Made by a program: the position numbers and the translations under genes
Source of the DNA: Chitinophaga pinensis
Lineage (GTDB): Bacteria; Bacteroidota; Bacteroidia; UKL13-3
DNA length: 58,843 bases
Direction: 5' to 3'
NCBI GenBank assembly: GCA_945898275.1
Contig: CAMDHZ010000017.1
Coordinates: 1 to 58,843 of the forward strand
Part shown: one piece after another, positions 1,963 to 55,151 of the stretch
Layout: each line of letters begins with the position of its first letter
How positions within the stretch are numbered: position 1 is the stretch's first letter
The notes under the pieces: generated by a model
Database searches by the model: none
What the model saw: the letters and a program-made list of their open reading frames with translations, nothing else
Told to the model about the DNA's origin: nothing

Positions 1963-3117
1963 ATGAATAAGCTATTATTATACTTAAGTTTACTGCTTTT
2001 AACAACACAAATCAAGGCACAAACAGATTCAAACTATATTGAAGTAAGTTTGATTTTACCTTTTTCAGCAAAAAGTGTTTATGAAAATCCAAAGGACAAA
2101 AACGCAGGGGTAAGTGAAGCGTGCAGGCAGTATTTCGAAGGATTTACCTTAGCCATTGACAGTTTAGAGAAAGCAGGAATCCCAGTAAGTTTAAGCGTAT
2201 ATGATACCAAATTAGACACCTTTTTTTTCAAAAAGATTTTAGAAAAAAAAGAAGTTCAAAACAGCGATTTAGTCTTTGGTCCGGTAATGCCAAATGGCAC
2301 ACAAATGATGAAGGATTTTGCCCAGAAAAACCAAGTTTTTCACATTTCACCGCTTATGACCCTAACAAAAACTTCTATAAATGATTCCTTTCTTATATCG
2401 GCATACCCAGATTTAAGATATTATGCCAATTTCATTTTAGAAGCAATTAAAAAGCAGGATTCCATGCATGCAAACATTGTTGTTTTGTCGGATAAAAAAA
2501 CAAATGACATTATTTTTAGCAAGCAGTTTTCGACTTTAAAAAGCAAATATAAATCCTTCACTATTAAAAATTTAGACATAGCGAAGTATTTAGATTATAG
2601 TTTGCACTATAAAATGGGAGCCCAAAATCATGTGGTGATTGCATGTGAAAACGAATTTTTGGTAAACAACGTGATTAAGCACTTAGCTGATAGCACCCAA
2701 TTTTTGAACATAAACTGTTGGACTACCAGAAAAATTCTAGAATTTAAAGCTATAAATCTGTCTCAATGGGAAGCGATTCATTTAAACATAATTACTCCAT
2801 TTTTTATAAATTATTCTGACACCCTTGTGAGGGCATTTTCGGAAAAATATAGAGAAAGATATTATACTGAACCAAGCGAATTTGCTGTGAATGGGTTTGA
2901 ACAGGCAGTTTATTTTATTAGCGCCTACCGCGAATTACATGGTGATTTTAGTAAACTTAAAGAATTAAAACCAAGAAGAGCACTTAGTAACTACTTTGAG
3001 GTTAAACCAAAAGAAGAACTTTTAAGTCAGCAAAATGTTGGTTTGAACCAATTGATAATTGAGGGGCATGAGATTAGGCAGCGACTAAAATATAGTCCTG
3101 AACAACAAAAACAATAA
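1963..3117 (+). CDS. Periplasmic-binding-fold (ABC substrate-binding-like) exported protein
   Basis: The 384-residue protein starts at ATG 1963, four bases after guaA; a longer frame exists upstream but overlaps guaA and has no signal peptide. Residues 1-20 are a signal peptide with a predicted cut after KAQ. The rest resembles the type I periplasmic-binding fold of branched-chain amino-acid receptors: an LPFS start, an SVYDTK strand, a VFGPVMPNG ligand-site loop and a NGFEQAVYF helix near the end. Bacteroidota often carry such receptors fused to LysM repeats in cell-wall proteins; no LysM is visible here and no ABC permease is nearby. The ligand is unknown. The last 33 bases overlap the convergent phosphate transporter gene. 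Confidence 0.7.
   Translation: MNKLLLYLSLLLLTTQIKAQTDSNYIEVSLILPFSAKSVYENPKDKNAGVSEACRQYFEGFTLAIDSLEKAGIPVSLSVYDTKLDTFFFKKILEKKEVQNSDLVFGPVMPNGTQMMKDFAQKNQVFHISPLMTLTKTSINDSFLISAYPDLRYYANFILEAIKKQDSMHANIVVLSDKKTNDIIFSKQFSTLKSKYKSFTIKNLDIAKYLDYSLHYKMGAQNHVVIACENEFLVNNVIKHLADSTQFLNINCWTTRKILEFKAINLSQWEAIHLNIITPFFINYSDTLVRAFSEKYRERYYTEPSEFAVNGFEQAVYFISAYRELHGDFSKLKELKPRRALSNYFEVKPKEELLSQQNVGLNQLIIEGHEIRQRLKYSPEQQKQ
3040..3049 (+). repeat. Dispersed palindrome copy 1
   Basis: GGTTTGAACC, here in a full TTGGTTTGAACCAA context; read as GLNQ in the periplasmic-binding-like gene. Confidence 0.8.
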
Positions 3118-4494
3118 TCCAGAAACTACTACACAAACGGGCAAAGTAAGTAGCCAAGCAATTGCAATATTCTTGATGGTTTTTGTTTGAAGATTTTTGA
3201 TTCCTTTACTTGCCACCATGCTTCCAGCAATACCAGAAGAAAGCACATGTGTTGTGCTCACAGGCAAACCTAACCATGTAGAGAAACCTATAGTAGATGC
3301 TGCAACAATTTCAGCACTAGCGCCTTGGGCGTAAGTTAAATGTTGTTTTCCAATTTTCTCTCCAATGGTTACAACAATTCGTTTCCAACCAATCATTGTA
3401 CCTAATCCTAAGCTAATTGATATCAAAAATATCACCCAAATTGGCGCATAATCTGTAATCGATTTCAATGCTGCAACCTTCTTTTTAAGTTTAAGTTTAT
3501 TAGTTGCGCTTAAACTAAGATTTTTACTGTCGAGTAAAACTTTAATAGACTTGCCAAGCATTAGCATATCTTTTCTAATGGCCATTTTTTCTTGAGTAGA
3601 GTAATCAGCAATGGGCAAATTCTTAGTAAGGACTGAATCAAAATCCTTCACAAATCCAATAGTTTGATTGTATTCAAAACGCTCTTCTACAGTAAGTTCT
3701 TCAACATTAACTTTATTTAAAATTGATATTACTTCTGCCGATAACTCTTTATATTCTTCTGAAGACTTTGACACATCAAGCGTAAAATAGGCAGGAACAA
3801 TAGCAATTAGGATCAACATAACCAATCCTACACCCTTTTGACCGTCGTTTGAACCATGCGAAAAACTAACCCCAGTACAAGTAAGTAATAAAATAAGGCG
3901 AATCCAAAACGGAGGTGGCGCATTACTTGTTGGCTCCTTAAAGATTTGACGATTCTTAATGACTTGCCTCATAATATACATTAAAAGAATAGCCAAGCTA
4001 AAACCAAGTAAAGGAGAAAGTAGCAAAGACAAACCAATATCGGAGGCCTTACCCCAGTTTACATAGCTATGTGATTTATCAACGGCAATAAAAGAAAAGG
4101 CAAGTCCTACTCCTATAATTGATCCAATTAAAGTATGTGAACTCGAACAAGGTATTCCAAAATACCAAGTACCTAAATTCCAAAGGATTGCTGTAAGTAA
4201 TAAGGCTAAGATGAGCGCAACGTTGTGGTAAATGTCAGTGTCTAATAATAACTCAGGTGGCAACAATGTTGAAATGCCCATAGCAACAGCTATTCCACCA
4301 GCAAAAACACCAATAGCATTCCAAACACCACTCCATATAACTGCAATCCAAGGCTTTAGTGAATTTGTGTAAATAACGGTAGCTACAGCATTTGCTGTAT
4401 CATGAAAGCCGTTAATAAATTCGAATGCTGCCGCGGCAAACAAACATAAAATAAGTAAGAGGGTAAGCGAAGTATCGAGTCCGAATAATTGCAT
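3085..4494 (-). CDS. PiT-family inorganic phosphate transporter
   Basis: The protein is a 469-residue inner-membrane phosphate permease driven by an ion gradient. The duplicated PiT signature is seen as INGFHDTANAVAT (27-39) and GLPVSTTHVLSSGIAG near the C terminus, with a GSNDGQKGVG motif between them. A hydrophilic insertion of about 115 residues (about 233-348), rich in K, E and L, splits the membrane halves and should be cytoplasmic or periplasmic. Unlike the second PiT at 7591, no DUF47 partner is adjacent. It is divergent from the S46 peptidase gene. Cation specificity (H+ or Na+) cannot be read from the sequence. Confidence 0.92.
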   Translation of the reverse strand: MQLFGLDTSLTLLLILCLFAAAAFEFINGFHDTANAVATVIYTNSLKPWIAVIWSGVWNAIGVFAGGIAVAMGISTLLPPELLLDTDIYHNVALILALLLTAILWNLGTWYFGIPCSSSHTLIGSIIGVGLAFSFIAVDKSHSYVNWGKASDIGLSLLLSPLLGFSLAILLMYIMRQVIKNRQIFKEPTSNAPPPFWIRLILLLTCTGVSFSHGSNDGQKGVGLVMLILIAIVPAYFTLDVSKSSEEYKELSAEVISILNKVNVEELTVEERFEYNQTIGFVKDFDSVLTKNLPIADYSTQEKMAIRKDMLMLGKSIKVLLDSKNLSLSATNKLKLKKKVAALKSITDYAPIWVIFLISISLGLGTMIGWKRIVVTIGEKIGKQHLTYAQGASAEIVAASTIGFSTWLGLPVSTTHVLSSGIAGSMVASKGIKNLQTKTIKNIAIAWLLTLPVCVVVSGLLFLLFRTIF

Positions 4495-4539
4495 TATTGC
4501 AAATTTAAGTTCAGTAAAGCCATTTCAATATTATGTATT

Positions 4540-4558
4540 TGTTAACATAAGGTTAACA
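4540..4558. promoter_or_regulatory. Small perfect inverted repeat between divergent genes
   Basis: TGTTAAC, five bases, then GTTAACA form a 7-bp perfect inverted repeat in the 140-base gap between the PiT gene and the S46 peptidase gene. The position would suit an operator, but two HpaI-type sites can occur by chance in AT-rich DNA. No regulator gene is adjacent. Confidence 0.25.
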
Positions 4559-4634
4559 TGATTTTTGCCATTTATCAAAAAAAAAGAATGAAACTAATGC
4601 AAGATAAGTAGATTGCGGGCGCAATTTTTTATTT

Positions 4635-6785: not shown

Positions 6786-6801
6786 GAATTTTTTTTATTT
6801 C

Positions 6802-6838
6802 AAAAAAAGGAGGTCGGCATTGCCGACCTCCTTTTTTT
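6802..6838 (+). terminator. Intrinsic terminator after the S46 peptidase gene
   Basis: A 10-bp G+C-rich stem (GGAGGTCGGC paired with GCCGACCTCC, 3-base loop) is preceded by seven A and followed by seven T. It is symmetric and could work in both directions. Confidence 0.9.
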
Positions 6839-6901
6839 ACGCCTAAATCAGAAGCAATATTAAGTTATCGCTAACCCACGGTTAAGTTGATTCAATTCCC
6901 T

Positions 6902-6910
6902 TAAGTTTGC
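6902..6910 (+). promoter_or_regulatory. Bacteroidota-type -7 element upstream of the DUF47 gene
   Basis: TAAGTTTGC matches the TAnnTTTG -7 consensus of Bacteroidota sigma factors, 19 bases before the ATG at 6929. No clear TTTG -33 box is found at the usual spacing, so confidence is modest. Confidence 0.35.
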
Positions 6911-6928
6911 CTTCGAAATATTTTAACC

Positions 6929-7576: not shown

Positions 7577-7590
7577 TTCAAATCAGGAGA

Positions 7591-8985: not shown

Positions 8986-10123
8986 GTGTTTCGGTTTGAA
9001 CCAAGCCTTCATAACAATAGAATAGTTTGTCCAAATCTATTTGCCAATTATATTTCAATTCGCTAGCATTAGCTGCATTTTGAACCTTTTGGTTCAAAAC
9101 AATACTATTGCTTAAGAGTGTTTCAATGGCTGAAGCTATTGCCTTGGCATCCGTTAAATCAACACAAACACCGATAGCTGTTTCATCGTTTAATTCTTGA
9201 TAAATATGGGTATTTGCAAATATGGAAGGCAATCCGATTGCCATGTATTCGAACAATTTTCTTTCATGGCTAACCAACATTTCAGCAGGCTGGTTTTTTA
9301 AACAAATTCCAATTTTACATTGCTTTGAAATTTGATACGCTTCAGCCATTTCAAGCCTTCCATAATATTGAACTTGTGCTTCAATTTCATTCCAATAACT
9401 CAAATGGGAAAAGCCGTGGTTTGCATTTGAACCAAAATAACCGATGAGATGAAGTTTAACCAAAATACCCTTTTGTTTTAGCAAGAAAATAGCTTCCAAC
9501 AATGAATCTACCTCATAGTACATGTCTCTAATCATGCCAATGTAGAAGATTTCATTTGTTGTCAAAGAGGCTCTATCTAAAATTCTAAAAGGCTTTAATT
9601 GTTCAATGTCTGCAAAATTCTGAATGATAGTGCATTCCTCCTCCTTTACAAAAAAAGCAGGTAGAAACCTTGGATGTGCCACCACCACAATAAAGTGTAA
9701 AAACTGTTTTGCAAATCTTAACAGGAAATTGTAAGTTTTTGCAACTATCTTTTTAAGCCATGGTTTGACCCAAGGTTTTAATAAAATATCATGGTAGGTG
9801 TTTTCATGAATATCATAAATAACCTTTTTGCCAGATAAAGCCAAGACAATTCCATAAGGAATCATCTCGGCATCATGAATATGGTACAATTGCGCATCTG
9901 CATAAAGCGCTTCTTTAAAAACCTGAAAGGCGGTTAGTGTAAAGCGTTTTAAAAAAGATTTTGGCTTTTGAATACCAATTACCTTTACACCATTTATAAT
10001 GCCACTTCTATCTCCAATTGCAATCAGGGTTACTTCATATTTTGTAGCCAATGAGACACATTCTCTATAAAAAACACGTGTATCCCAAATATGATGAACC
10101 GAAGAGAAATGGCAAACCCTCAT
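8972..10123 (-). CDS. Glycosyltransferase of the GT4/GT1 (GT-B) type
   Basis: The 383-residue cytoplasmic enzyme probably transfers a sugar from a nucleotide donor to a glycan or lipid acceptor. The start at ATG 10123 overlaps the acyl-CoA dehydrogenase stop (ATGA), which supports it over a longer frame. The N-terminal half has [12 protein letters not shown] and [12 protein letters not shown] segments; the C-terminal half has [17 protein letters not shown], the E-x7-E-like donor-binding region typical of GT-B glycosyltransferases. The last codons carry one copy of the dispersed palindrome (8993). Pairing with a fatty-acid oxidation gene is unexpected, and the acceptor is unknown. Confidence 0.82.
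8993..9002 (+). repeat. Dispersed palindrome copy 2
   Basis: TTCGGTTTGAACCAAG; antisense to the glycosyltransferase gene, where the codons read VQTE near the C terminus. Confidence 0.8.
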
Positions 10124-11385: not shown

Positions 11386-12099
11386 TTACTCTTGGTTAAT
11401 AGTCAAGTAAATGGCTATCCTTTCAAAAATGCTATCGTTAATAATTTTAATTTCTTTCAGCTCCTCTAAACGTTTAAATTTCCCGTGTTGCTTTCTATAA
11501 TTTAAAATTGCCTTAGACAAGGAAAACTTAAAATATGGATGCGTAGAAAGTGTTTTAAAATCGACTTCATTGATATCAAATATTGCATTTGAGGAAGGAG
11601 TTATGGTTAAACGTTCCTTTAAATCAAAGAGTAAATCCTCTTTAAATCCATACACTTCGGTTAATTGGTTTAAAGTTATGAATCCACCCAATCCTGCTCT
11701 GTACTTTATAATACGGGAGGCCAAGGTTGGACCAATTCCTGGCAAAGAAACCAAATCGGCGCTATCTGCAGTGTTTACTTCTAAAGCTATAATTTTCTTA
11801 GGAATAAAGCTCTTTTCATAGGGAACAAAAGTTTTTCTTTTTTCGGTTTGAACCGAGTTTTTGCGACTCCAATTTTTATAGTTTGATTTCTTTTCTGAGT
11901 CGTAACTTGGAATGGAATCTTTGAGAGCAGCTAAATAGTTTAAATCAAAATCAGCTTGCGGTGTAGGTTCAAACCGACCATAAATAAAACTTACAACCAA
12001 TAAAAATGAAAGGAGATAAAGTAAACTTCTTATTCCCTTTTGTTCTTGTTGAGTAAAGAAAAAGTAAGTCCGAATAAACCGCTTAATCCTCCTCTTCAT
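11386..12099 (-). CDS. ComEA-like helix-hairpin-helix protein, membrane-anchored
   Basis: The 237-residue protein has one N-terminal membrane segment (about 23-40), a polar linker, and two helix-hairpin-helix units in the second half: VNTADSADLVSLPGIGPTLA and, more divergent, FDINEVDFKTLSTHPYF. This is the domain by which ComEA binds DNA non-specifically during natural transformation; many Bacteroidota have such proteins of untested function. I place the start at ATG 12099, overlapping the small upstream gene by 17 bases; a frame from TTG 12138 is the alternative. It contains two copies of the dispersed palindrome (11845, 11966), 121 bases apart. Confidence 0.8.
   Translation of the reverse strand: MKRRIKRFIRTYFFFTQQEQKGIRSLLYLLSFLLVVSFIYGRFEPTPQADFDLNYLAALKDSIPSYDSEKKSNYKNWSRKNSVQTEKRKTFVPYEKSFIPKKIIALEVNTADSADLVSLPGIGPTLASRIIKYRAGLGGFITLNQLTEVYGFKEDLLFDLKERLTITPSSNAIFDINEVDFKTLSTHPYFKFSLSKAILNYRKQHGKFKRLEELKEIKIINDSIFERIAIYLTINQE
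11845..11854 (+). repeat. Dispersed palindrome copy 3
   Basis: TTCGGTTTGAACCGAG; in the helix-hairpin-helix gene, read as VQTE on the minus strand. Confidence 0.8.
11966..11975 (-). repeat. Dispersed palindrome copy 4
   Basis: GTCGGTTTGAACCTAC on minus; in the same helix-hairpin-helix gene, read as RFEP. Confidence 0.8.
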
Positions 12100-12241
12100 C
12101 CTCCTCAGGTTTTGGATTGATTTTAGGGTTTTTAACAAAGAAGAAATATAATAAAGCCACTACCACCGCTGCGAAAAAAAATTCGGTTAAAAACCAAAAC
12201 ATAAATCCGGCAGGTGCAGGTTCTGAAAGTATAAAGAACAT
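12083..12241 (-). CDS. 52-residue single-span membrane protein with acidic tail
   Basis: A small gene fills the space between the RmlD-like gene (stop at 12243, one base away) and the helix-hairpin-helix gene, whose start it overlaps. It encodes a hydrophobic span (about residues 13-36, rich in F, A, V and L) followed by KNPKINPKPEEDEEED, a strongly acidic cytoplasmic tail. No family is recognised. The tight junctions on both sides and the membrane-protein pattern support a real gene. A role as a small subunit or scaffold is a guess. Confidence 0.65.
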   Translation of the reverse strand: MFFILSEPAPAGFMFWFLTEFFFAAVVVALLYFFFVKNPKINPKPEEDEEED

Positions 12242-16670: not shown

Positions 16671-17912
16671 ATGAATATTCAAGATATTAAACAAAGATTC
16701 GAAATTATTGGCTCATCGCCATTGCTTAACATTGCTTTAGAAACAGCAGTTAAAGTTTCTGGGACAGATATTACAGTTTTAATAAATGGAGAAAGTGGCG
16801 TAGGTAAAGAAGCATTTTCAAAAATCATTCACGCCTTAAGTGGCAGAAAACACGGACCTTTTATTGCAGTAAACTGCGGTGCAATTCCAGAAGGAACCAT
16901 AGACAGCGAGCTATTTGGCCATGAGAAAGGAGCGTTTACGGGTGCGCATGATACCAGGAAGGGTTATTTTGAAACCGTAAATGGAGGAACTATTTTTTTA
17001 GATGAAATAGGTGAACTACCCTTAGAGACTCAAAGTAGACTGCTTAGAATCTTAGAAAGTGGGGAATTTATTAAAGTTGGTTCAAGCAAAGTTCAAAAAA
17101 CGGATGTAAGAATTGTTGCGGCAACTCATAGAGACTTATTAGACCTTGCCAATAAAGGAAAATTTAGAGAAGATTTGTATTATAGGTTATCTACAGTTCC
17201 AATAAAAGTGCCGCCATTACGCGAAAGAAAAGAAGATATTCATCTTTTATTTAGAAAATTTAGTGCCGACTTTGCTGAAAAATACAAGAGTAAACCAGTT
17301 GTTTTAGAACCCGATGCTTTGCAAATACTTGGGAGTTATAGTTGGCCTGGTAATATCAGACAATTGAAAAATATAGCAGAGCAGCTTTCTGTTTTAGATG
17401 AAGATAAAATAGTGAATGGGAAAGAACTTGCAAGGGTTTTACCTCCTGAAAAAACTTCCCTACCAATGTTAATTGGTTCAAACCAAACCGGAACAGAAAC
17501 CTTAAGTGAAAGAGATATATTTTATAAGGTTCTGTATGATTTAAGAAAAGACCTGAGTGATTTAAAAACGATTGTGTTTGATATGATGCAAGGGAACAAC
17601 CCGATAAACAATTCAGAGCACCATACAAGTTATTCAGCGGTTATGAATAGAGAAGAGGCAATGGCACCAAATCCACAGAATAATTATGTGCCAATTGTTT
17701 CACAATCTTCCTCCACACCGCCAAATCCTCAATACATTGATATAACAGAAGCTAATCATGAACCTGAGTCGTTGAGTTTGGAAGACAAAGAGATAGAGTT
17801 GATTCGAAAATCTTTGAAGAAACACAATGGAAAAAGGAAAAGGGCGGCACAAGAACTTGGAATTTCTGAAAGAACCCTTTATAGAAAAATCAAGCAATAC
17901 GACTTAGAATAG
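16671..17912 (+). CDS. Sigma-54-dependent transcriptional activator without receiver domain
   Basis: The 413-residue AAA+ activator opens RNA polymerase-sigma-54 complexes. The AAA+ domain begins almost at the N terminus: Walker A GESGVGKE (40-47), the sigma-54-contacting loop GAFTGA (87-92) and Walker B GGTIFLDE (105-112). A long variable linker (about 260-360) precedes a Fis-type helix-turn-helix ([19 protein letters not shown]) at the C terminus. There is no response-regulator, GAF or PAS domain, so the activator may be controlled by a partner protein. The only close candidate is the upstream MtfA-like membrane protein, one base away. Confidence 0.93.
17475..17484 (-). repeat. Dispersed palindrome copy 5
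   Basis: TTTGGTTTGAACCAATT on minus; in the linker of the sigma-54 activator, read as GSNQ. Confidence 0.8.
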
Positions 17913-20173: not shown

Positions 20174-22090
20174 TTACCAACGACAAAGTATTTGAAAAGA
20201 AAAATCTGTTATTGCATTTCCCGAAATTTCGTCCCAGCCAGAACCTGGTTGCGTTCCATCAGCCTGTGCCAAATGCCCTATTTTCAGGTAAATATCCCAT
20301 AAATCAGAGATTTTATACCGAACCAACAAATATGATTTTGAACCCACTCCATTAAATGAACCTAGCGCATATTGGTAAGGCAAATCTTTTTCCATGGCGT
20401 AAATTCGGGTTGCATCCTTCAGGCTTTGAAAGGCTAAATACCTAGCTGTCAAATTCAAAGCATGATTAGGTACCTGCCAAGAAGCTTCTATAAAAAAGCT
20501 GGAACCATCCCATGTTTGCCAACGATTATAATCGAATCGAGCTTTTAAGTTAAGGTGTTTATTGGGAAGTGAAATGGCTTGAAGGCGAAGCTGCTGCTTG
20601 GTTTCCCAAATATTATTCAATAGAAATCCATCCTCCTTCATGTCTTTTTTATATTTTTTATAACTCAAACGAATTTCCCAACTTAGGCTTTTGGAACTTT
20701 TTATCTGAGCATTTGCTAGCCATTCAGCACCTTTAGCATCTATTTCCTTTTGGTAACGAGCAGCTGGCGCCGAAAAAACATCTTGAAAAAACCCAATTTG
20801 TAATTTTCTACTAGGTTTTAAAAACAAGGCCTGATAAATACCTCGTTCATTATAAGTTCCAGAAAACTCACTCCATGCAGCAGCAAAAAAATTCTGACCA
20901 TTGGCTGCATAATTTCTATATAAAATCAAGTAATCAACCTTGCTATGAAACGGCTTTAACACTTGCAAAAGCAAATTGTATGAACTTTTATATACACTAA
21001 ACTCTGAATCAAATAAGACGTTCTTATAATTCTTCTTCAAATAAATTCCATATCGAATGTTTGGTTCAAACCGAAAACTGAAATGTGGTTGTTGTGCACT
21101 CATTTGGTAAATTAATCCTATGTTTCCATCTGAAAAGGTTCTTGATAAATGAATACAAGAAACAAAATTTCTCAATGCATTTTTACCCTCTATTTCTCTT
21201 GGAGTTCTGTGCAAACCAGAGCCGTTGTCTCCTAATCCTGAAAGCAGAAAATCCAGTTTAGTCTTTTTAATTTCCAACCCAATAGCTGCACCTTTTAAAA
21301 AACCAAACTCGCTCACAGACCGGTATGGTTGAATGCCAACAATTCTTCCACCTGTTTGAAAAACTTGTGCACTTTTTCCCATGGGCGCCCTGCTTGCAAA
21401 GGTTAATCCAAGTCCAAATGCCGCTTGATAATCCCCTATTGCCAGCGTTTTAATTAGTCCTTTGCCACGATAAAAAAGGTGAACACTTAAAAAATCTGGT
21501 CGTTCATACTTTTCTCCTGCATCTTTTTCGACTGCCAAACCAAAATACAATTGTTGCTTATAAGAAAATCTATAACGCATTAAAGTACGTGTTCTATCTC
21601 CTAGGTAATGTTTCTCGCCCTGTTGGTTTTCCTTAAATCCTTTAGGTTTTTGCAAACTAAATTCGGTTTGAACCAAACATTCTTGTTGGCCGTTTTTAAT
21701 CCAATCCATAAAGGGTTCCTCCGTAATTTGCTTAGGCTGAATGCTAACTACCTTGGACAGAATTATTACCAATTCTGGAGAAATGCCTTCAATTGATTGT
21801 AATTCATAGATTGAAATCAACTTACCATAAAGTTGCAAATGCTTTTTGATGGCTAACTTTTCAGGTTCACTTAAAAAAAATAGCTTTTGAACTGAGTTCG
21901 AATCAAGTGAAATTGGATGTTGCTCCAGGTCCATTAAGAGCTGAGAGAATTCAGAAAGCTCAATATTTAAATCAACCTCGGATTGCCTTTCTAGAAAATT
22001 TTGCCACCAAAGTGTTTTTTCTATTTCGGTTTGACCCAAAATGAATAGCGAGCATAGCATGAAAGTTAATATAAGCATGCACTTTTTCAT
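20174..22090 (-). CDS. Outer-membrane barrel protein with N-terminal helix-hairpin-helix region
   Basis: The 638-residue exported protein begins at ATG 22090 (four bases after the upstream gene) with a signal peptide (1-20). Residues about 60-115 (LSEPEKLAIKKHLQLYGKLI, then YELQSIEGI) match the helix-hairpin-helix repeat of ComEA-type proteins. The remainder alternates polar and aromatic strands and ends in FSFQILCRW, the C-terminal aromatic typical of outer-membrane beta barrels. A surface DNA- or polymer-contacting role is an inference. It holds two copies of the dispersed palindrome (21063, 21665). It is paired with another barrel gene at 22095. Confidence 0.75.
   Translation of the reverse strand: MKKCMLILTFMLCSLFILGQTEIEKTLWWQNFLERQSEVDLNIELSEFSQLLMDLEQHPISLDSNSVQKLFFLSEPEKLAIKKHLQLYGKLISIYELQSIEGISPELVIILSKVVSIQPKQITEEPFMDWIKNGQQECLVQTEFSLQKPKGFKENQQGEKHYLGDRTRTLMRYRFSYKQQLYFGLAVEKDAGEKYERPDFLSVHLFYRGKGLIKTLAIGDYQAAFGLGLTFASRAPMGKSAQVFQTGGRIVGIQPYRSVSEFGFLKGAAIGLEIKKTKLDFLLSGLGDNGSGLHRTPREIEGKNALRNFVSCIHLSRTFSDGNIGLIYQMSAQQPHFSFRFEPNIRYGIYLKKNYKNVLFDSEFSVYKSSYNLLLQVLKPFHSKVDYLILYRNYAANGQNFFAAAWSEFSGTYNERGIYQALFLKPSRKLQIGFFQDVFSAPAARYQKEIDAKGAEWLANAQIKSSKSLSWEIRLSYKKYKKDMKEDGFLLNNIWETKQQLRLQAISLPNKHLNLKARFDYNRWQTWDGSSFFIEASWQVPNHALNLTARYLAFQSLKDATRIYAMEKDLPYQYALGSFNGVGSKSYLLVRYKISDLWDIYLKIGHLAQADGTQPGSGWDEISGNAITDFSFQILCRW
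21063..21072 (-). repeat. Dispersed palindrome copy 6
   Basis: TTTCGGTTTGAACCAAACA on minus; in the helix-hairpin-helix barrel gene, read as RFEP. Confidence 0.8.
21665..21674 (+). repeat. Dispersed palindrome copy 7
   Basis: TTCGGTTTGAACCAAACA on plus; in the same barrel gene, read as VQTE on minus. Confidence 0.8.
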
Positions 22091-22094
22091 CACC

Positions 22095-27636: not shown

Positions 27637-28836
27637 TTGAATCCAACGAATAAAAATGAAAACCTGATACAAGGGTTTGATTTGGAACTTTTTTTGACCC
27701 AAAACAAACATTTGGATGGAGAGACATTTTTACTACGTGACAAAAGTAGTACAATTTTTCTAAAAGGCCTACTTGCCAATCAATTAAACTTATACCCTAA
27801 AGCAAAAAACAAACTTCCTACCTTCTTCAACAACTATTGTTGGTTCAGCCCAAAAGGCTTTGAACAATGCAGTAGCGAAGCCACAGCACTACATAAATCT
27901 TGCCTTTTTTCAGGCGAAAACCTACTTGATTTAAGTGGCGGTTTGGGTGTAGATGATTGGGCTTTTTCTAAAACTTTTGAACAAATTATTTCTCTCGATC
28001 CAGATAATGAACTTAATTTTCTGGTGAGAGAAAACTTTAGAAAGCTTGGAGTATCAAATGTCAATAGAATTGACCTAACTGCTGAAGTTTATTTAGAACA
28101 AAATGCTAACCTCAATTTTGATTTGATATTTTTGGATGCTGATAGAAGAAATCCAGATGGTAAAGATTATTCCTTGGAAGGTGGAAGCCCATCTTACCCC
28201 GAATTAAAAAATCAGCTATTGCGCCAAGGAAAAAAAATACTTTTGAAGCTCTCTCCAATGGCTGATATTAGCTATTTATCAAGGAATATTTCGCATTTAA
28301 AACAGCTTATTGTTATTGGTTATAAAAGTGAGGTGAAAGAAATTTTAGCAGAAATAGAACCCAATTATCTTGGAGATGTAAAAGTGTTGGCACATGTTTT
28401 GGATCAAAATGAAACCTTTTCAAAATGGCCCAATGAAAATTCAATGCCTAAACCCAATGTCAAAGATGATTTGTACTTTTTCGAAACCCATAATGCCTTA
28501 GTAAAGGCAAACTTGTCAAAAGAGTATTTAGGCGCAAATGAGATTGAAACTTGGGGAGTTTCAGGAATATTTGGTATGGCTCGGTTTGAACCAAAAGATT
28601 TTATGGGTAGAATGTTTTTGGTAAAAAAAATAATGTCTTATCAAAAGTCTGAATTGAAACGCTATTTTAAAACATTGGGAATTAATCAGGCGAATTTTAC
28701 CAAAAGAAATTTTCCCACTCAAATCGAAGTGCTAAGAAAAACCTTTGGCATATTAGAAGGCGGAAGCGACTATTTTTTCTTCACGCAGATGGAGGATGGC
28801 AGTTTAGAAGTTTGCCATTGTATCAAAATATTTTAA
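27637..28836 (+). CDS. Class I SAM methyltransferase with THUMP-like domain
   Basis: The 399-residue protein has no early ATG; TTG 27637 is the probable start. A Rossmann methyltransferase core occupies the middle: motif I DLSGGLGVDDWAF, motif II IISLDPDNEL and the acidic FLDADRRNPDG segment in place of an NPPY loop. The C-terminal part (about 290-399) corresponds to the THUMP-like domain found in this Bacteroidota family. The substrate is not established; RNA is likely from the domain. It contains a copy of the palindrome read as RFEP (28583). Its last 4 bases overlap mltD. Confidence 0.8.
   Translation: MNPTNKNENLIQGFDLELFLTQNKHLDGETFLLRDKSSTIFLKGLLANQLNLYPKAKNKLPTFFNNYCWFSPKGFEQCSSEATALHKSCLFSGENLLDLSGGLGVDDWAFSKTFEQIISLDPDNELNFLVRENFRKLGVSNVNRIDLTAEVYLEQNANLNFDLIFLDADRRNPDGKDYSLEGGSPSYPELKNQLLRQGKKILLKLSPMADISYLSRNISHLKQLIVIGYKSEVKEILAEIEPNYLGDVKVLAHVLDQNETFSKWPNENSMPKPNVKDDLYFFETHNALVKANLSKEYLGANEIETWGVSGIFGMARFEPKDFMGRMFLVKKIMSYQKSELKRYFKTLGINQANFTKRNFPTQIEVLRKTFGILEGGSDYFFFTQMEDGSLEVCHCIKIF
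28583..28592 (+). repeat. Dispersed palindrome copy 8
   Basis: CTCGGTTTGAACCAAAAG; in the methyltransferase gene, read as RFEP. Confidence 0.8.
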
Positions 28837-30263: not shown

Positions 30264-31325
30264 GTGCTTAAGATTATACAAATATTGCTTTTGCCTTTAG
30301 CGTTTATTTATGAATTAATATTACGTTTAAGGAACCATATTTATGATGTTAAATTGGTTGCGCCCACAAGTTTTAATATTCCTACAATATGTGTTGGCAA
30401 CCTTGCTTTTGGAGGAACAGGGAAAACACCGCACATAGAATTTCTTATTCAACTTTTAAAAGACAATTTTAAAATTGCTGTTTTAAGTAGAGGTTATGCT
30501 AGAAAAACACAAGGGTATGTTTTTGCAGGTGAATCAAGTAATGCCTTGCTAATTGGGGATGAACCTTTTCAAATTTTCCTTGGCCATCCTGAAGTGGCGG
30601 TTGGAGTTTGTGAAAGCCGTGTTTTAGGAATTCCAAACTTGTTATTTGATGCGCCAGAAACCAATTTAATTTTATTGGATGATGCCTATCAACACCGTCA
30701 ATTGCAATGCGGATTAAACATCTTATTAACCGATTATGAAAGGCCTTATTATAAAGATTTTTTAGTTCCATCTGGCTATTTAAGAGAATACCGTGGTGCG
30801 GCTAAAAGAGCTGATATTATTATTGTTAGTAAATGTAAGCCAACACTAAGTAAACAAGAAGCAGAAGCCATAAAAAAAGCAATTTCGCCAAAAGCGCATC
30901 AAACTGTTTTTTTTAGCAACATGGCTTACGCAAACCCTGTTCCGGTATTTGGTTCAAACCAAACCTTAACTAAAAACTCGCAAATTTTAGCCTTTTCGAG
31001 CATTGCAAAACCTGAACCATTTTTCAATTATTTAAAAGAACAATTTATTGTTGTTAAACATAAAACTTATCCCGATCATCACTTATTAACTGAAAGGGAA
31101 ATTATTGATTTAACTGAAAGATTTGAATTGCTTGAAGGGCAAAATAAAGCAATTATCACCACAGTAAAAGATAGCAGTAAATTGCTTTCCCTAGATTTAC
31201 CAGATAGCTTTAAGCAGTTGCCAATTTATAGTCTTTCCATCTCCCCTATAATATTATTTGAAGAGGAAGCAAAGTTTAAGAATTTAATCCAGTTACATAT
31301 TGAACAAATGCAAATGGAAGCTTAA
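30264..31325 (+). CDS. lpxK: Tetraacyldisaccharide 4'-kinase
   Basis: The inner-membrane-associated kinase phosphorylates the lipid A disaccharide at the 4' position. The start codon is GTG at 30264, giving an N-terminal hydrophobic helix (about 3-20) normal for LpxK. The P-loop GGTGKT is at 50-55, and LLDDAYQHRQL is the conserved catalytic segment (DDGFQH in enterobacteria). The length of 353 is normal. Its last 4 bases overlap the convergent EamA gene. Its presence supports a Gram-negative lipid A-making organism. Confidence 0.94.
   Translation: MLKIIQILLLPLAFIYELILRLRNHIYDVKLVAPTSFNIPTICVGNLAFGGTGKTPHIEFLIQLLKDNFKIAVLSRGYARKTQGYVFAGESSNALLIGDEPFQIFLGHPEVAVGVCESRVLGIPNLLFDAPETNLILLDDAYQHRQLQCGLNILLTDYERPYYKDFLVPSGYLREYRGAAKRADIIIVSKCKPTLSKQEAEAIKKAISPKAHQTVFFSNMAYANPVPVFGSNQTLTKNSQILAFSSIAKPEPFFNYLKEQFIVVKHKTYPDHHLLTEREIIDLTERFELLEGQNKAIITTVKDSSKLLSLDLPDSFKQLPIYSLSISPIILFEEEAKFKNLIQLHIEQMQMEA
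30951..30960 (-). repeat. Dispersed palindrome copy 9
   Basis: TTTGGTTTGAACCAAATA on minus; in lpxK, read as GSNQ. Confidence 0.8.
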
Positions 31326-35095: not shown

Positions 35096-35123
<28 letters not shown>

Positions 35124-35821: not shown

Positions 35822-35858
35822 GTGCGGGCGAAGATAGTATAAAAAATTCTTAGTATTC

Positions 35859-35868
35859 GGTTTGAACC
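35859..35868 (+). repeat. Dispersed palindrome copy 10
   Basis: TATTCGGTTTGAACCAAACC in the gap between ubiE and the DUF2256 gene; one of only two intergenic copies. Confidence 0.8.
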
Positions 35869-35915
35869 AAACCCTTATGTCAGAAAACAATCCACTGCAA
35901 ATTTGTTTTTAAATT

Positions 35916-36693: not shown

Positions 36694-38933
36694 CGAATTC
36701 CAACAAAATACCTTCGTGCCATCATCGGTGCATAATTATAGGTTGGGTCAAAAGTGAAATTATTGGGGTTTGAAATAGGATCATTCACATTTTTATCAAA
36801 TGGGTCGAACCAACGCATGATGGGGTCTTTGGGAAGGAAGTTAAATACGTTTTTTATGCCTGCATAGATTTCCAAACGTCTATCAAAATTTTTGATAAAC
36901 TGTATATTTTGCAAGGTATACCAAGGGGAATATTCTGGTCTGAAATCGTTTGGCAACACAGGTAAACGCATCGGACCATAAACTTGGCCGGTATAATCTA
37001 CAGTTATGTTATAAAACCTTTTAAACTTATAACTCACGCCAAATACCCCTGAGAAATTGGGTGCATGTATTTGATTTGACTTTACCAATTCCCCGCTTTG
37101 GTTGCTAACAATGGAATAAACACGCATAAAAGTGACCCCTGCATTAAGTTTTAAAGGTTGGGCAAATTGCGCGTTTAGGTTCAAACTAATTCCTTTAGAA
37201 ACTGCATGTTCATTGATATTGGTATAAATAATTGCGTTGGGGTCAGTATCATAATCAGGTATGATTTTATTAGAGAAATAGGTGTAAAAAACGGAGGCAT
37301 CAAAATCTAAAAATCCTTTATCAAAACCTTTCCATTTGCTGTATTGCAGGTTAACATTCCAACTTTTTTCGGGTTCCAAATCTTCCTTGATAATTAGTTT
37401 TCTGGCGCCCGTTAATGCAGCATGGTCTTCTGTAAAAAGGTTTACAATTCTAAATCCATTTCCAACGCCCATACGAAACGTGTGCCCTCTCCATTCTCCT
37501 ATTTTATAGTTTATGCGCGGAGAATAAATAAATCCATGTCGTGCGTTAAAATCCATTCTTAGACCTATCAATAACGACTGATAAGCATCCAATTGAATTT
37601 CATCCTGAACAAATACACCAGGCAAATAGGTTATATCTGGTTGGTTCAAACCAAAACCATTTGTAGTAGCAACAGAGTTATCGTCATAAAATGTGTAGCG
37701 CAACGCTGTTCCAAAAAGAAGGCGATGCCTTGAACCTATATTTTTATTGTATAGCAACTGACCAAAACCAGTAGTTTGTTTCCCTAAATATAAGCTTGTT
37801 CCATAAGCTGCATCTTGGTTGTGGAGGTTAAAAGAAAGTTGAAACCTAACATGTTGATTAAATAGTTTGAAGGGATGCAAGCCAATTAATTCTAACCTAT
37901 CTGTAAAAATAGATTCTCCATAAATACTATCCCCTCCTCTAAAATCTTCAGTCCAATTCATTTCTCCACCAAAACGATTTTCCTTAAATAGTCGCAAAGA
38001 AACTTGGGAGGCCAATGAATTACTGCGTTGCCAATGCATTTTAGCAAAAACCGAGGCTCTTTTTTGTAAGGCGATATCTGTAAAATTATCTTTATTTAAA
38101 TCTACCTTTTGGTTCAAGCCAAATAAATTGGCACTAAAAAGATAACTTAATTTCTCCTTTTTAACAGAAAACCCTACATCAAGATTTTGTTCTAAGTAGG
38201 AAGTTCCAAAATAATCAATGCTTAGTTTGGGCGCAGTATTCGCATTTTTTGTGATGATGTTAATTAAACCTCCAACAGCTTCGCTACCATAAAGTGTGGC
38301 GGCAGGACCTTTAACAATTTCTACTTTTTCAATCATGCTATTTGGAATTCCCATTAAGCCATAAACAGCGGAAAGGGCGCTAACAATGGGCATTCCATCT
38401 ATAAGCACAAGGGTGTAAGGGCCATCCAAACCATTAATTTGAATGTCGCCAGTATTGCACACATTGCAGTTCATGGTTGGCAAAACACCATTTACCATTT
38501 GTATTGATTCGAATAGGTTATTTGTAGGATTTTTCTGAAAAAATTTACTATTAATAACTTCAACTGCAATTGGTGAAGATGAGCGAGAAGTCTCGCTAAG
38601 CGTGCCGCTAATGGTAACTTCTTTAAGACTTTGATTTAAGGCTTCTAAGTTTACAAGCAAGGGTTTATTGCTTTTCTCGGTTTGAACCCAAACGCTGAAA
38701 TTTGAAAATCCAATCATGCGAACCTCTAAAAGAAATCTTCCAGCAGGTAAATTTTCTAACAAAAATTCCCCGTTTTGGTTGGTTGTAGTTCCTTTACCTA
38801 AAGCTGAAATCCCAACCGAAGCAAATGCTAATGGTTGTTTTTCTGAAAGCACTTTCCCGCTAATATGTAGCGACTGAGCACCTAATTGGGAATTAAATAA
38901 ACAAATTAGAACTAAAATCTTGAGGTATTTCAC
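36678..38933 (-). CDS. TonB-dependent outer-membrane receptor
   Basis: The 751-residue receptor imports a ligand across the outer membrane by TonB energy. It starts with GTG 38933 and a signal peptide (1-19). A carboxypeptidase-regulatory-like domain (about 22-100, with NGEFLLENLPAGRF) precedes the plug, which shows NGLDGPYTLVLIDGMP and VEIVKGPAATLYGSEAVGGLINI. The barrel ends YFVGIRYNLR with a non-aromatic last residue. The plug carries NCNVC (C156, C159) just before its ligand loops, which points to metal or metal-complex binding. No TonB, ExbB or uptake partner is adjacent. Confidence 0.93.
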   Translation of the reverse strand: MKYLKILVLICLFNSQLGAQSLHISGKVLSEKQPLAFASVGISALGKGTTTNQNGEFLLENLPAGRFLLEVRMIGFSNFSVWVQTEKSNKPLLVNLEALNQSLKEVTISGTLSETSRSSSPIAVEVINSKFFQKNPTNNLFESIQMVNGVLPTMNCNVCNTGDIQINGLDGPYTLVLIDGMPIVSALSAVYGLMGIPNSMIEKVEIVKGPAATLYGSEAVGGLINIITKNANTAPKLSIDYFGTSYLEQNLDVGFSVKKEKLSYLFSANLFGLNQKVDLNKDNFTDIALQKRASVFAKMHWQRSNSLASQVSLRLFKENRFGGEMNWTEDFRGGDSIYGESIFTDRLELIGLHPFKLFNQHVRFQLSFNLHNQDAAYGTSLYLGKQTTGFGQLLYNKNIGSRHRLLFGTALRYTFYDDNSVATTNGFGLNQPDITYLPGVFVQDEIQLDAYQSLLIGLRMDFNARHGFIYSPRINYKIGEWRGHTFRMGVGNGFRIVNLFTEDHAALTGARKLIIKEDLEPEKSWNVNLQYSKWKGFDKGFLDFDASVFYTYFSNKIIPDYDTDPNAIIYTNINEHAVSKGISLNLNAQFAQPLKLNAGVTFMRVYSIVSNQSGELVKSNQIHAPNFSGVFGVSYKFKRFYNITVDYTGQVYGPMRLPVLPNDFRPEYSPWYTLQNIQFIKNFDRRLEIYAGIKNVFNFLPKDPIMRWFDPFDKNVNDPISNPNNFTFDPTYNYAPMMARRYFVGIRYNLR
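37643..37652 (-). repeat. Dispersed palindrome copy 11
   Basis: TTTGGTTTGAACCAACC on minus; in the TonB-receptor gene, read as GLNQ. Confidence 0.8.
38679..38688 (+). repeat. Dispersed palindrome copy 12
   Basis: CTCGGTTTGAACCCAAAC; in the TonB-receptor gene, read as VQTE on minus. Confidence 0.8.
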
Positions 38934-43273: not shown

Positions 43274-44713
43274 ATGAAGAAAACTTTTGTTAGTAATCTC
43301 ATTCTCTTGATGAGTGTGAACCTTTTAGTGAAACCATTTTGGATTTTGGGCATCGATAGAGGTGTACAAAATAAAGTTGGATATGAGGCGTATGGCATTT
43401 ATGCAGATTTGTTTGCGTTCTCAATGCTTTTCATCACGCTTTTAGATTTAGGGTTAAACACCTACATGTCTTCTAATGTGGCCAAAGACCCAGAAAAACT
43501 TCGTTCTGAATTTGCTGCACTAACAGGGTTCAAACTTGCCTCATCCCTGGTATATTTAGGTATTACTTTAATACTTGGCACCTTTAATAATTATGATTCA
43601 GATAGAATTAGTTTGCTGCTAATGTTAGGTTTGAACCAAATCCTAGGCTATTTTTATACGTACTTTAGAAGTATCGTTGGTGGACTTCAATTGTTTAAAA
43701 CAGATGCCTTACTTTCTATTGTGGACCGTACCTTAATGATAATATTCTGTGGCTTAATGTTATGGTCTGGATTATTTGAAATAAGTATTTCTAGGTTCAT
43801 CTATGCACAAACCATAGCTTATTCGGTAGCTGCAACTTTAGCGCTTTGGTTTATTTTGCCGCACCTTAAACATATAAATCGAGAAATAAACTTCCTCATT
43901 CTCAAAAAGGTTATCAGACAAATGCTACCTTATGCGTTACTATCACTACTAATGACATTTTACACCAGACTAGATGTGGTTCTAATAAGAAACTTGGCTT
44001 CTGAAGGAGATTTACAGAATGGTATTTATGCTTCTGCCTACCGTTTATTAGAAGCTGCTAACATGATGGCAGCCTTGGTTGCGATGTTGTTGCTTCCAAT
44101 ATTTTCAAAAATGATTGCTAAAAAGGAGGCTTTAAGTCCTTTGGTCCAATTTAGCACAGGATTAATGCTTTTACCAGCATTTTCTTTAGGCATGATTACT
44201 TTTTTTTGGAAACAACCTTTGATACGTTTACTTAACCATCAAAGTACAGATTATAGCGGGGATGTATTTGGAATTGTAATGCTATGTTTTGTACCGCTTG
44301 CTTTAATGTATATTTATGGAACCTTATTAACAGCTAATGGAAACTTAAGGGTTTTAAACATAATGGCAGCCATAGGTTTACTGTTAAATATCGGATTTAA
44401 TTTGTGGTTAATTCCTATCCATCAAGCTTTGGGAGCAGCTATAGCAGCCATAATTACGCAAGGTTTTGTAGGCATTAGCAATTTTTATTTAGGTAAAAAG
44501 CAGTTAAAAATTCGGTTTGAACCAAGCTTTAGTAAAAATCTAATGATTTCTCTTATCCTCGTCTTTGGTATGGCTTACAGCACTTTCAGTATGAAGTTAG
44601 ATTGGGTATTTGGGTCAACCCTAATAATTCTTACCACAATTTTATGTATGTTTATCTTTAAAATGATTGATTTGAAACAGGCATTTGCACTAATTAAATC
44701 CAGAAATGAATAA
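43274..44713 (+). CDS. Wzx-like polysaccharide flippase
   Basis: The 479-residue membrane protein has about 12-14 spans and belongs to the MOP superfamily polysaccharide-export group, which flips lipid-linked oligosaccharides. Segments such as LLDLGLNTYMSSNVAKDPEKL and YTRLDVVLIRNLASEGDLQNGIYASAYR fit Wzx-type proteins. It is followed by a Wzz-like and a ligase/polymerase gene, so it opens a small glycan-export cluster lacking glycosyltransferases. It carries two palindrome copies (43629, 44514). Confidence 0.85.
   Translation: MKKTFVSNLILLMSVNLLVKPFWILGIDRGVQNKVGYEAYGIYADLFAFSMLFITLLDLGLNTYMSSNVAKDPEKLRSEFAALTGFKLASSLVYLGITLILGTFNNYDSDRISLLLMLGLNQILGYFYTYFRSIVGGLQLFKTDALLSIVDRTLMIIFCGLMLWSGLFEISISRFIYAQTIAYSVAATLALWFILPHLKHINREINFLILKKVIRQMLPYALLSLLMTFYTRLDVVLIRNLASEGDLQNGIYASAYRLLEAANMMAALVAMLLLPIFSKMIAKKEALSPLVQFSTGLMLLPAFSLGMITFFWKQPLIRLLNHQSTDYSGDVFGIVMLCFVPLALMYIYGTLLTANGNLRVLNIMAAIGLLLNIGFNLWLIPIHQALGAAIAAIITQGFVGISNFYLGKKQLKIRFEPSFSKNLMISLILVFGMAYSTFSMKLDWVFGSTLIILTTILCMFIFKMIDLKQAFALIKSRNE
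43629..43638 (+). repeat. Dispersed palindrome copy 13
   Basis: TTAGGTTTGAACCAAATCC; in the flippase gene, read as GLNQ. Confidence 0.8.
44514..44523 (+). repeat. Dispersed palindrome copy 14
   Basis: TTCGGTTTGAACCAAGC; in the flippase gene, read as RFEP. Confidence 0.8.
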
Positions 44714-47208: not shown

Positions 47209-48275
47209 CCTTTACGGTTGATTCCGTACTTTAAACTAATGATATTACTCATTCCAATCAAACCTTGATTGAATGCGTTTCCTAGGGCATAATCAATGGA
47301 GAGTGTTTTCAATTTTATGCCAATTCCCATGCTTGGCATTCCATTAAAACTTTGTTTACCAGAAATATCAGTTACTCTTTGTAAAGTGCTATACCCACCT
47401 CTAACAAAAACAAAATCATTGTAACCAAACTCCAAACCCATTCTTGGGTCAAGATTAATAATTTTACTGCTTATTAAAACATTTCTTTGACCATCTGTAG
47501 TTAAATCAAAATTAAACTCTGGTAAAAGCGAATATCTATCTTTAGAAAAATAAAATTTCCTAGCAACTCCAAATGTAAACCTAGGAACTGTAATTTCTAA
47601 CCCACCGTTGGGAACTGCATTTCCAGCAGCAATTAATTGTTGTTTATCCGCTTCTGAAAGGTTGAAAGTCCAAGCATTAAAGGTACTGCTAATATCTCTA
47701 GCCATTGCTGCAAACTGCCAGTCATTTCGTTCATACGTTGCACCAGCATCTATCCCAAATCCCCAAGCGCCACCAAATTCGCCAACTACCCTTCTAATTA
47801 CTTTTGCGTTCAAACCAATATTTAAGCCTTTAATTTTAGTAGTTTTGGCATAAGAGCCTACAAAAGCATAATCTACAGCCGAAAAGCTTCTGATGAGAGA
47901 ATAATTTATTTGGCCATCTTGCATGATATACAAGGTATTTGGGATACCATCTACTCCAAATCTTATGAGGGAGAACGCTAATTTTGAGTTTTCTGAAAGA
48001 GAAAAACCAATACTACCATAATCATGCTTGGCAATACCTGCAAACTGTTCATTGTGCATCCCACTGATTTGCAGATTTTCGGTCATTTTGAGTAAAGTTG
48101 CTGGATTCCAATACGCACCAGTTACATCATTTGAACTTGCTATAACAGAGCCTCCCATGGCCATTGCGCGTCCACCTATGCCAATGTTTAGAAACTCATT
48201 ACTGTATTTTAATACTTGCGCTTGCGTTTGGTTCAAACCGAGCACTAATGTTAACAGCAAAAGATAATTTTTCAT
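47205..48275 (-). CDS. PorV/PorQ-family outer-membrane barrel protein
   Basis: The 356-residue exported barrel has a signal peptide of about 1-19 (cut after TQA). The N-terminal FLNIGIGGRAMAMGGSVIAS then GAYWNPATL is the hallmark of the PorV/PorQ (UPF0164-like) family, whose members include type IX secretion shuttle and attachment proteins. The barrel ends with NIISLKYGINRKG. The exact paralogue (PorV, PorQ or other) is unclear. A palindrome copy lies inside the signal-peptide codons (48230). Confidence 0.85.
   Translation of the reverse strand: MKNYLLLLTLVLGLNQTQAQVLKYSNEFLNIGIGGRAMAMGGSVIASSNDVTGAYWNPATLLKMTENLQISGMHNEQFAGIAKHDYGSIGFSLSENSKLAFSLIRFGVDGIPNTLYIMQDGQINYSLIRSFSAVDYAFVGSYAKTTKIKGLNIGLNAKVIRRVVGEFGGAWGFGIDAGATYERNDWQFAAMARDISSTFNAWTFNLSEADKQQLIAAGNAVPNGGLEITVPRFTFGVARKFYFSKDRYSLLPEFNFDLTTDGQRNVLISSKIINLDPRMGLEFGYNDFVFVRGGYSTLQRVTDISGKQSFNGMPSMGIGIKLKTLSIDYALGNAFNQGLIGMSNIISLKYGINRKG
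48230..48239 (-). repeat. Dispersed palindrome copy 15
   Basis: CTCGGTTTGAACCAAAC on minus; in the signal-peptide codons of the PorV-like gene, read as GLNQ. Confidence 0.8.
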
Positions 48276-52725: not shown

Positions 52726-52839
52726 CTTTTTTATTACTTAAATTTTAAACCCACGAATAAAGATAAATGTTTGTTTTCAACAATTAATTAACTCAGACAA
52801 AAAATTAATTTACTCATGACCTTTCTTAATGTTTAATGC

Positions 52840-52871: not shown

Positions 52872-52874
52872 AAC

Positions 52875-54161: not shown

Positions 54162-54174
54162 TACTTAGAAATTA

Positions 54175-55077
54175 ATGCATACAAAAATGAAAACAATTGG
54201 TCCAAAAGACCTGCCATTGGCAGAGTTTCATAATACCCTTTTAACGGCCATTGCGCCGAGGCCAATCTGCTTTGCAAGCACAATTGATGAGGCAGGAAAT
54301 CCTAATTTAAGTCCGTTTAGCTTTTTTAACATTTTTGGATCAAACCCAACCCGATTTATTTTTTCGCCTGCTAGGAGGGTGCGTGATAATACTATAAAAC
54401 ATACTTTAGAAAACGCCTTTGCTACCAAAGAAGTTGTAATAAATGTAGTAAACTACGCCATGGTTCAACAGATGAGTTTAGCAAGTTGCGAGTATCCAAA
54501 AGGCATAAACGAATTCGAAAAAGCAGGATTTACAATGGTTCCTTCCTTGCATGTAAAACCATTTAGGGTAAAGGAAAGTCCGGTTCAAATTGAATGCAAA
54601 ATAGTAGATATACAAGAAACAGGAACTGAAGGTGGTGCAGGAAATCTCATCATTGCAGAGATGATTTGTATGCATATTTCTCCTGAAGTATTAACTGCAG
54701 ATGGAAAAATTAACCAGCATCAACTTGATGTGGTGGGCAGATTGGGCAGCGATTGGTATGTGCGCGCTAGTGGTTCTGCATTGTTTGAGGTGGCCAAGCC
54801 AGCAAGAAACCTAGGAATTGGATTTGACCAATTACCATTGGGTATAAAAAACAGTAAATTTTTAACTGGCAACGACTTGGGCATGCTTGCCAATTGTGAG
54901 CAATTGCCAGATTTAGATTCGGTGGCAATATTTCAACGCATGAATAAAGAATTGAGCAAAATATTGGCTCAAGAATTAACCAAGGAAGAAAAAAGTGAGT
55001 TGCTTCATAAACTTGCACATCAAATATTACTTGAAGCAAAAGTTTTGGAGGCTTGGAAAATACTTTTGAGCGAATAA
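54175..55077 (+). CDS. Flavin reductase-like FMN-binding split-barrel protein
   Basis: The 300-residue protein resembles the flavin reductase/DIM6-NTAB group: TAIAPRPICFASTIDEAGNPN and LSPFSFFNIFGSNPTRFIFSPARR form the FMN-binding split barrel, and the C-terminal about 90 residues are an added helical part. Two possible ATG codons are 54175 and 54187. Flavin reduction or a related FMN-linked reaction is inferred from family only. It is likely cotranscribed with tyrS. Confidence 0.82.
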   Translation: MHTKMKTIGPKDLPLAEFHNTLLTAIAPRPICFASTIDEAGNPNLSPFSFFNIFGSNPTRFIFSPARRVRDNTIKHTLENAFATKEVVINVVNYAMVQQMSLASCEYPKGINEFEKAGFTMVPSLHVKPFRVKESPVQIECKIVDIQETGTEGGAGNLIIAEMICMHISPEVLTADGKINQHQLDVVGRLGSDWYVRASGSALFEVAKPARNLGIGFDQLPLGIKNSKFLTGNDLGMLANCEQLPDLDSVAIFQRMNKELSKILAQELTKEEKSELLHKLAHQILLEAKVLEAWKILLSE

Positions 55078-55141
55078 GTGTACAAAATAGTGTCTAAATT
55101 GAGGAAATTATTTCCACTAAAAAATACACATCATAAGTTTC

Positions 55142-55151
55142 GGTTTGAACC
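55142..55151 (+). repeat. Dispersed palindrome copy 16
   Basis: TTTCGGTTTGAACCAAATG in the gap between the flavin reductase gene and yidC; the second intergenic copy. Confidence 0.8.

Follow-up and report, generated by a model that had tools for sequence, protein, structure and literature searches.

The subject of this analysis is a dispersed DNA word with the core GGTTTGAACC, found in a 58,843-nucleotide stretch of Chitinophaga pinensis contig CAMDHZ010000017.1 (the whole stretch is referred to as the window, and its source genome as G000). The word is an imperfect near-palindrome of about 16 letters (site 14–16 bp). Copies lie on either strand and in various reading frames, and it is the DNA sequence itself that is conserved; among the genomes sampled the word is restricted to one uncultured Bacteroidota genus. 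As there are hundreds of copies, kept unchanged inside genes and with dialects between branches, the word is probably a signal for recognising or handling the cell's own DNA. The favoured form of this reading, a genus-specific self-recognition sequence that is most likely an analogue of the DNA uptake sequence (DUS) with a hypothetical receptor, is put forward tentatively, at somewhat less than even confidence.

Abundance and retention of the word

A preliminary description of the window had located 16 exact copies of the core or its complement; all were present in the 58.8 kb (G+C 35.3%), with one start corrected to 43628 from 43629. Window Markov models of orders 1–4 gave expectations of 0.13 (order 1) to 0.47 (order 4) copies (Poisson P ≤ 1.6e-19), the earlier estimate having been near 0.1. 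The described flank preference was also recovered, with A directly after the core in 13/16 copies and C directly before it in 11/16, and all seven near copies named by position differed from the core by one mismatch. Fifteen of the 16 copies were inside an open reading frame (ORF), but one of these ORFs is probably over-extended: that over 35859 begins at a TTG a long way upstream of a likelier ATG, and the earlier figure of fourteen genic copies was therefore accepted as fair. The exact core copies, with their strand and the ORF map, were as follows.

3040..3049, + strand, in ORF 1885-3117 (+)
8993..9002, + strand, in ORF 8972-10276 (-)
11845..11854, + strand, in helix-hairpin-helix ORF 11386-12138 (-)
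11966..11975, - strand, inverted relative to the 11845 copy, in ORF 11386-12138 (-)
17475..17484, - strand, in ORF 16671-17912 (+)
21063..21072, - strand, in ORF 20174-22102 (-)
21665..21674, + strand, in ORF 20174-22102 (-)
28583..28592, + strand, in ORF 27637-28836 (+)
30951..30960, - strand, in ORF 30264-31325 (+)
35859..35868, + strand, likely to lie shortly before the actual gene start, inside TTG-started ORF 35096-35890 (-)
37643..37652, - strand, in ORF 36678-38933 (-)
38679..38688, + strand, in ORF 36678-38933 (-)
43628..43637, + strand, in ORF 43274-44713 (+)
44514..44523, + strand, in ORF 43274-44713 (+)
48230..48239, - strand, in ORF 47205-48275 (-)
55142..55151, + strand, intergenic between converging ORFs

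The excess was borne out genome-wide. Across G000 (3,522,268 bases, 106 contigs) the core occurred 391 times forward and 394 times in reverse (785 in total, 0.22 exact copies per kb, no strand bias), compared with 20 + 9 = 29 occurrences of the control, GGTTTGAACC read backwards. A sample of 458,843 bases from the same genome, made up of the window and 400 kb from contigs C1 and C2 (hereafter the own sample), contained 109 copies where 2.0 (order 2) or 3.2 (order 4) were expected, and the top five 9-mers and top six 10-mers by excess were the word or overlapping pieces of it.

Retention at the level of DNA rather than protein, as proposed in the preliminary description, was supported by strand, frame and conservation. 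In 390 ORFs the word was found 86 times, vs a mean of 8.2 after synonymous codons were shuffled within genes (30 shuffles, standard deviation 1.7, maximum 13). Copies in ORFs ran along the gene in 36 cases and against it in 50, and occupied five of the six frames. These frame counts and the shuffle rest on a first ORF set, and the intergenic comparison on a corrected later set with 3 sites at ORF edges left out: exact copies were denser between genes than in coding sequence (0.60/kb vs 0.21/kb, P = 1.3e-4), and the exact share of sites was likewise higher (19/24 vs 88/240, P = 1.0e-4).

Conservation at orthologous sites was examined in relatives, using random 10-mers matched to the word in G+C as background. 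Relative to G005 (77.5% nucleotide identity across 165 kb), the word was intact at 25 of 39 aligned sites, against 7.0% of 9031 background 10-mers; relative to G008 (94.3% identity), 43 of 50 were unchanged, against 58% of 9200. The conservation profile against G005 rose at position -2 and fell after +11, and third codon positions were identical in 90.5% of cases inside the word (n = 116) vs 53.8% elsewhere in ORFs (n = 52,088). At the 14 sites that differ between G000 and G008, the outgroup G005 carried the word in 3 of the 7 found only in G008 and 2 of the 7 found only in G000, which indicates that losses occur and that gains are likely.

These data leave next to no probability that the word merely reflects codon usage, peptide conservation or tRNA T-arms. 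The peptides LVQT, GLNQ and RFEP do recur at the sites, and GGTTCRAAC resembles a tRNA T-arm. However, an amino-acid or codon origin is refuted by the synonymous shuffle, the third-position conservation and the intergenic density, and is at odds with the occurrence of copies on either strand and in various frames. Of 114 copies in the organism's own stretches, none fell in a predicted tRNA, with only 4 tRNAs predicted there.

Form, dialects and taxonomic spread

Within the own sample, GGTT and AACC were paired at two-base spacing 119 times, vs 8 with the arms swapped, and at one-base spacing 48 times vs 4. The centre was TG/CA in 109 cases, CG in 2 and TA in 0. Flanks of the 109 copies were asymmetric, with C (62) or T (37) before the core and A (64) or T (31) after it, the next base being A in 105. 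Among one-mismatch words, TTGA and the right CC were seldom changed, and the left GG, T3 and A8 tolerated change; one such word, GGGTTGAACC, doubles as the one-base-spacing form. Phosphorothioation at GAAC, considered from general background, was set aside because GGTTTGACCC, which has no GAAC, was also over-represented (22 vs 0.5 expected).

Clades of the genus use different versions of the word (centre TG, centre CG, left arm GGTCT), alike within clades and different between them. Whole-genome counts are given below as TG form in both orientations / CG palindrome counted once / GGTCTGAACC in both orientations (controls ≤6).

G000 785/30/38; G008 839/34/38; G005 655/36/17
G012 60/300/7; G010 71/272/3; G016 46/186/6
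G001 320/142/219; G007 213/96/184; G004 175/82/90; G014 133/75/84; G006 96/47/73
G002 224/207/268
G003 213/164/94
G009 376/103/44; G011 368/90/40
G013 1318/92/96
G017 170/9/21
G015 151/6/21; G018 90/6/20

The sets that share a profile coincide with clades recovered at ≥100/99 in a tree of ComEC (G000/G008/G005; G012/G010/G016; G001/G007/G004/G014/G006; G009/G011; G015/G018). This tree is of one protein, with 5 of 17 inner branches open, G002, G003 and G013 unplaced, and partial sequences for G017 and G007. A soft two-strand expectation-maximisation gave a symmetrised matrix; oriented matrices were obtained with a thresholded procedure and a read-backwards control. Matrix sites per kb (control) were 0.94 (0.25) in clade I, 0.79 (0.16) in clade II and 0.68 (0.15) in clade III; the outgroup G078 had 0.09 (0.29).

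The TG form was present at 46–1318 copies in 18/18 other genus genomes examined (controls 6–37); the weakest ratios to control, in G012 (60:24) and G010 (71:21), belong to genomes rich in the CG form. Outside the genus it numbered 4–19 in six same-family genomes of other genera (highest in G024, 19:8) and 0–20 in 16 genomes of other families. The CG form, GGTTCGAACC, numbered 6–300 sites per genus genome, exceeding the control in 18/19 (G017, 9 vs 9), and 0–4 sites in 45/45 other genomes of the family. A class-wide scan (395 genomes, 196 genera) gave 163–907 occurrences of GGTTYGAACC in five genus members and ≤46 in the other 390; mild excesses were seen in other families in G429 (46 vs control 5, 6.5 Mb) and G364 (44 vs 10). 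By GuaA, the nearest named records, the best of 80 kept, were at 81–86% identity; of these, the 86% record held one word copy in 10.4 kb, and two at 81%, which may be of another genus, held none in 33 kb.

In viral stretches, 80 loci with the 14-mer (of at least 120 matching) contained 84 exact cores in 642 kb, four of them beyond the anchors, and 80 control loci with the reversed word (of at least 120 matching) contained 1 exact core in 676 kb; no motif-dense viral contig was found among the 80 loci listed. Viral contigs L265, L279, L297 and L309 had two exact cores each, and may be phages of the genus or chance.

A proposed self-recognition reading and its rivals

We infer the following scheme, whose elements (a binding protein with the geometry described, competence, and a function in uptake) are all putative. 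One sequence-specific DNA-binding protein would read GAnCCnA as the stronger half-site, beside a weaker inverted half-site (GGTTT, GGTTC or GGTCT), and selection or copying bias would keep about one exact copy per 4.5 kb. Competent cells would bind free DNA bearing the word and import it via ComEC, so that DNA of close kin would be preferred; receptor and word may have drifted together, which would yield the clade dialects. The receptor would have to act without the usual type IV pilus ATPase. The more specific proposal, a Bacteroidota self-DNA uptake word without type IV pili, comprising an imperfect palindrome, a putative receptor and at least three clade dialects that serve as gene-exchange barriers, is held with greater doubt.

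In the matrices, GAnCCnA was the steadier half of the word. In clade III and G013 its positions were 97–99% fixed, and the left arm varied (first G 65–79%; third position T at 46% in clade III); the asymmetry is partly made by the method, since each site is oriented by its better half and the difference is thereby exaggerated. This effect appears small, though not zero, because the two halves were nearly equal in the oriented matrix of clade II.

Several results weigh against the uptake reading, this procedural exaggeration among them. In the basal pair G015/G018 the matrix gave only a weak enrichment (0.29 sites per kb, control 0.18). At 68–70% identity few exact positions were shared by G000 and its relatives (G004 2/13, G013 2/11, G011 2/8, G016 0/6; backgrounds 2.7–4.3%), so that positions turn over at such distance. 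Over the cut-off for PF00437 (pilus/secretion ATPase; the pilins themselves were not searched) was 1 of 64 family genomes, the genus member G003 (8% contamination), in which a fragment of 54 positions matched in a 921-aa frame. ComEC was found in 19/19 genus members and 44/45 other family genomes (63/64); being near-universal in the family, it explains nothing genus-specific. No reader for the word was named by the PF00437, ComEC, methyltransferase or ParB searches, and no receptor gene was identified. Intergenic sites were in 12 tandem, 6 divergent and 6 convergent gaps, a spread that speaks against a promoter or terminator role, and no terminator association was found for them. The longest gaps between relaxed sites give no support either way for word deserts as foreign DNA: the two longest on C2 (14.9 and 11.7 kb) appeared from their translations to contain core genes, among them tsf, mnmG and genes for ribosomal proteins, and an 8.8 kb gap on C1 held accessory-looking ORFs. 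In the CG dialect the word is perfectly palindromic, in contrast to the known DUS and uptake signal sequences (USS), and the organism is apparently uncultured.

The main rival, and a serious one because the site has the appearance of one bound by a dimer, is a genus-specific chromosome-architecture protein (a nucleoid-associated, condensin-loading or segregation factor) that would bind the imperfect palindrome as a dimer and need sites chromosome-wide. We regard it as rather unlikely. It would suit the near-palindrome of 14–16 bp, with its two half-sites at fixed spacing and pyrimidine-purine centre, as well as the strong conservation at fixed sites, the equal use of both orientations, and the density of relaxed sites on C1, 7–13 per 20 kb over 240 kb, though on C2 the range was 4–20 over 160 kb. 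Site spacing, however, was not distinguishable from random (Kolmogorov–Smirnov (KS) P = 0.49 for exact and 0.69 for relaxed sites, fitted mean). Relaxed pairs less than 300 bp apart were inverted in 34/52 cases, a mild excess. A PF02195 (ParB) search of the 19 genus genomes matched 17, with a single match in 16 and none in G007 and G017; the second match in G004 was partial and just over the cut-off, and no convincing second ParB-type protein was found. The drift of dialects within the genus and the copy number would also be unusual for parS, Noc or matS sites.

A HIP1-like origin, in which a methyltransferase recognises part of the word, methyl-directed mismatch repair creates and keeps copies and the word itself has no function, appears improbable. 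Repair bias would also suit the fixed-site conservation, and one dialect, GGTTCGAACC, is a perfect palindrome with the TG form one transition away; alternative HIPs are described as replacing HIP1 where a methyltransferase specific for them is present (Elhai 2015, PMC4390886). Of three methyltransferase classes searched, none was shared across the genus, other classes such as PF02384 and PF07669 not being tested: PF01555 (N6/N4) and PF00145 (C5) each passed the cut-off in 6/19 genomes and PF02086 (D12-type) in 7/19. Six genomes passed none of the three (two of them 68% and 84% complete), and G013, with 1318 copies and 100% completeness, passed only through a PF02086 fragment interrupted by two stops. 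The centre counts of G000 are ill-suited to an enzyme of palindromic sites. As none of the three classes is shared and the dominant form is not palindromic, a HIP1-type origin is not supported; of the two resemblances raised in the preliminary description, the uptake sequence fits better in view of the dialects along the tree, the steadier core and the greater density and exactness of intergenic copies, but no genus-specific uptake machinery was found.

A Chi-type recombination or repair signal acting on a helicase-nuclease is very unlikely. The word is the most over-represented 10-mer of the sampled genome and its centre and flanks allow an orientation to be assigned, yet no orientation bias was observed, either genome-wide or by GC skew (relaxed sites 122:118 in negative-skew and 16:11 in positive-skew stretches), and clade dialects count against this explanation as well.

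For the self-recognition reading, the 19 genus genomes, which range from 46 to 1318 copies and differ in dialect, constitute a natural experiment: a cognate protein is expected genus-wide, absent in sister genera and varying with dialect.

Other features were recorded in passing. A ComEA-like helix-hairpin-helix protein of the window (ORF 11386-12138, - strand; two PF12836 stretches) carries two exact core copies, 121 bp apart and inverted. ORF 48967-50259 (- strand, 430 aa) combines a CAAX-protease domain (PF02517) with DUF3738 (PF12543), and at 3085-8985 two ORFs resembling PiT-type phosphate transporters (by eye, no search) flank a putative peptidase ORF. A different word, ACGAATTACG, probably a local repeat, occurred 14 times vs 0.11 expected in G004 stretches L112, L134-L138 and L207. 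Other over-represented words, unrelated to GGTTTGAACC, were GACGTCAAC in G003 and CGACACGAC and CGAGAGGCG in G013.

Comparison with known systems

Sites of the parS, Noc-binding and matS type are palindromes of similar length read by a dimer; the present word differs from them in copy number, in its dialects within one genus and in the lack of a clear extra ParB. HIP1 and the alternative HIPs of cyanobacteria are likewise dispersed, palindrome-like words, one of which may replace another between relatives, and HIP words are described as being replaced together with their methyltransferases (PMC4390886), a pattern not seen here for the three classes tested. The word studied here is longer, is not G+C-rich and has no methyltransferase of the three tested classes in common across the genus; palindromy holds where the CG form dominates (G010, G012, G016) and fails for the TG form, which is the dominant one.

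Within the Bacteroidota, a likeness is Riemerella columbina, in which a preference for self-DNA has been reported: own DNA outcompetes foreign DNA about two-fold, halving transformation at 1 µg, and foreign DNA was not significant at 1 µg and was effective at 10 µg (PMC7965970). The k-mers tabulated in that Riemerella/Flavobacterium study are A/T-rich only, and no defined word is given there (PMC7965970). The statement in the preliminary description that no such element was known from Bacteroidota agrees with searches of open-licence papers, among whose listed matches none described it, as judged from title, abstract start and counts; open-licence papers containing the letters of GGTTTGAACC concerned other organisms, among the matches listed.

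In the Pasteurellaceae and Neisseriaceae, DNA that contains particular short sequences is taken up preferentially (PMC1939737). For the DUS of Neisseriaceae, Frye et al. report an invariant core combined with dialects that track the core-genome tree (PMC3630211). As in that account of DUS (PMC3630211), and as with USS of Pasteurellaceae, the present word is short, occurs in many copies, genic and intergenic, and has an essential core and phylogeny-following dialects. It is unlike them in being pseudo-palindromic with two half-sites, in belonging to another phylum with no convincing pilus ATPase, and in number, with 785 exact copies (0.22 per kb) against thousands in Neisseria (PMC3630211). A word of this kind in a different phylum, with neither the usual pilus ATPase nor a shared methyltransferase of the tested classes, would suggest that self-recognition words arise repeatedly with other machinery. 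Given its restriction to one genus, a steadier half beside a drifting one, and dialects that follow the tree, the word comes closest to the DNA uptake sequences of Neisseriaceae.

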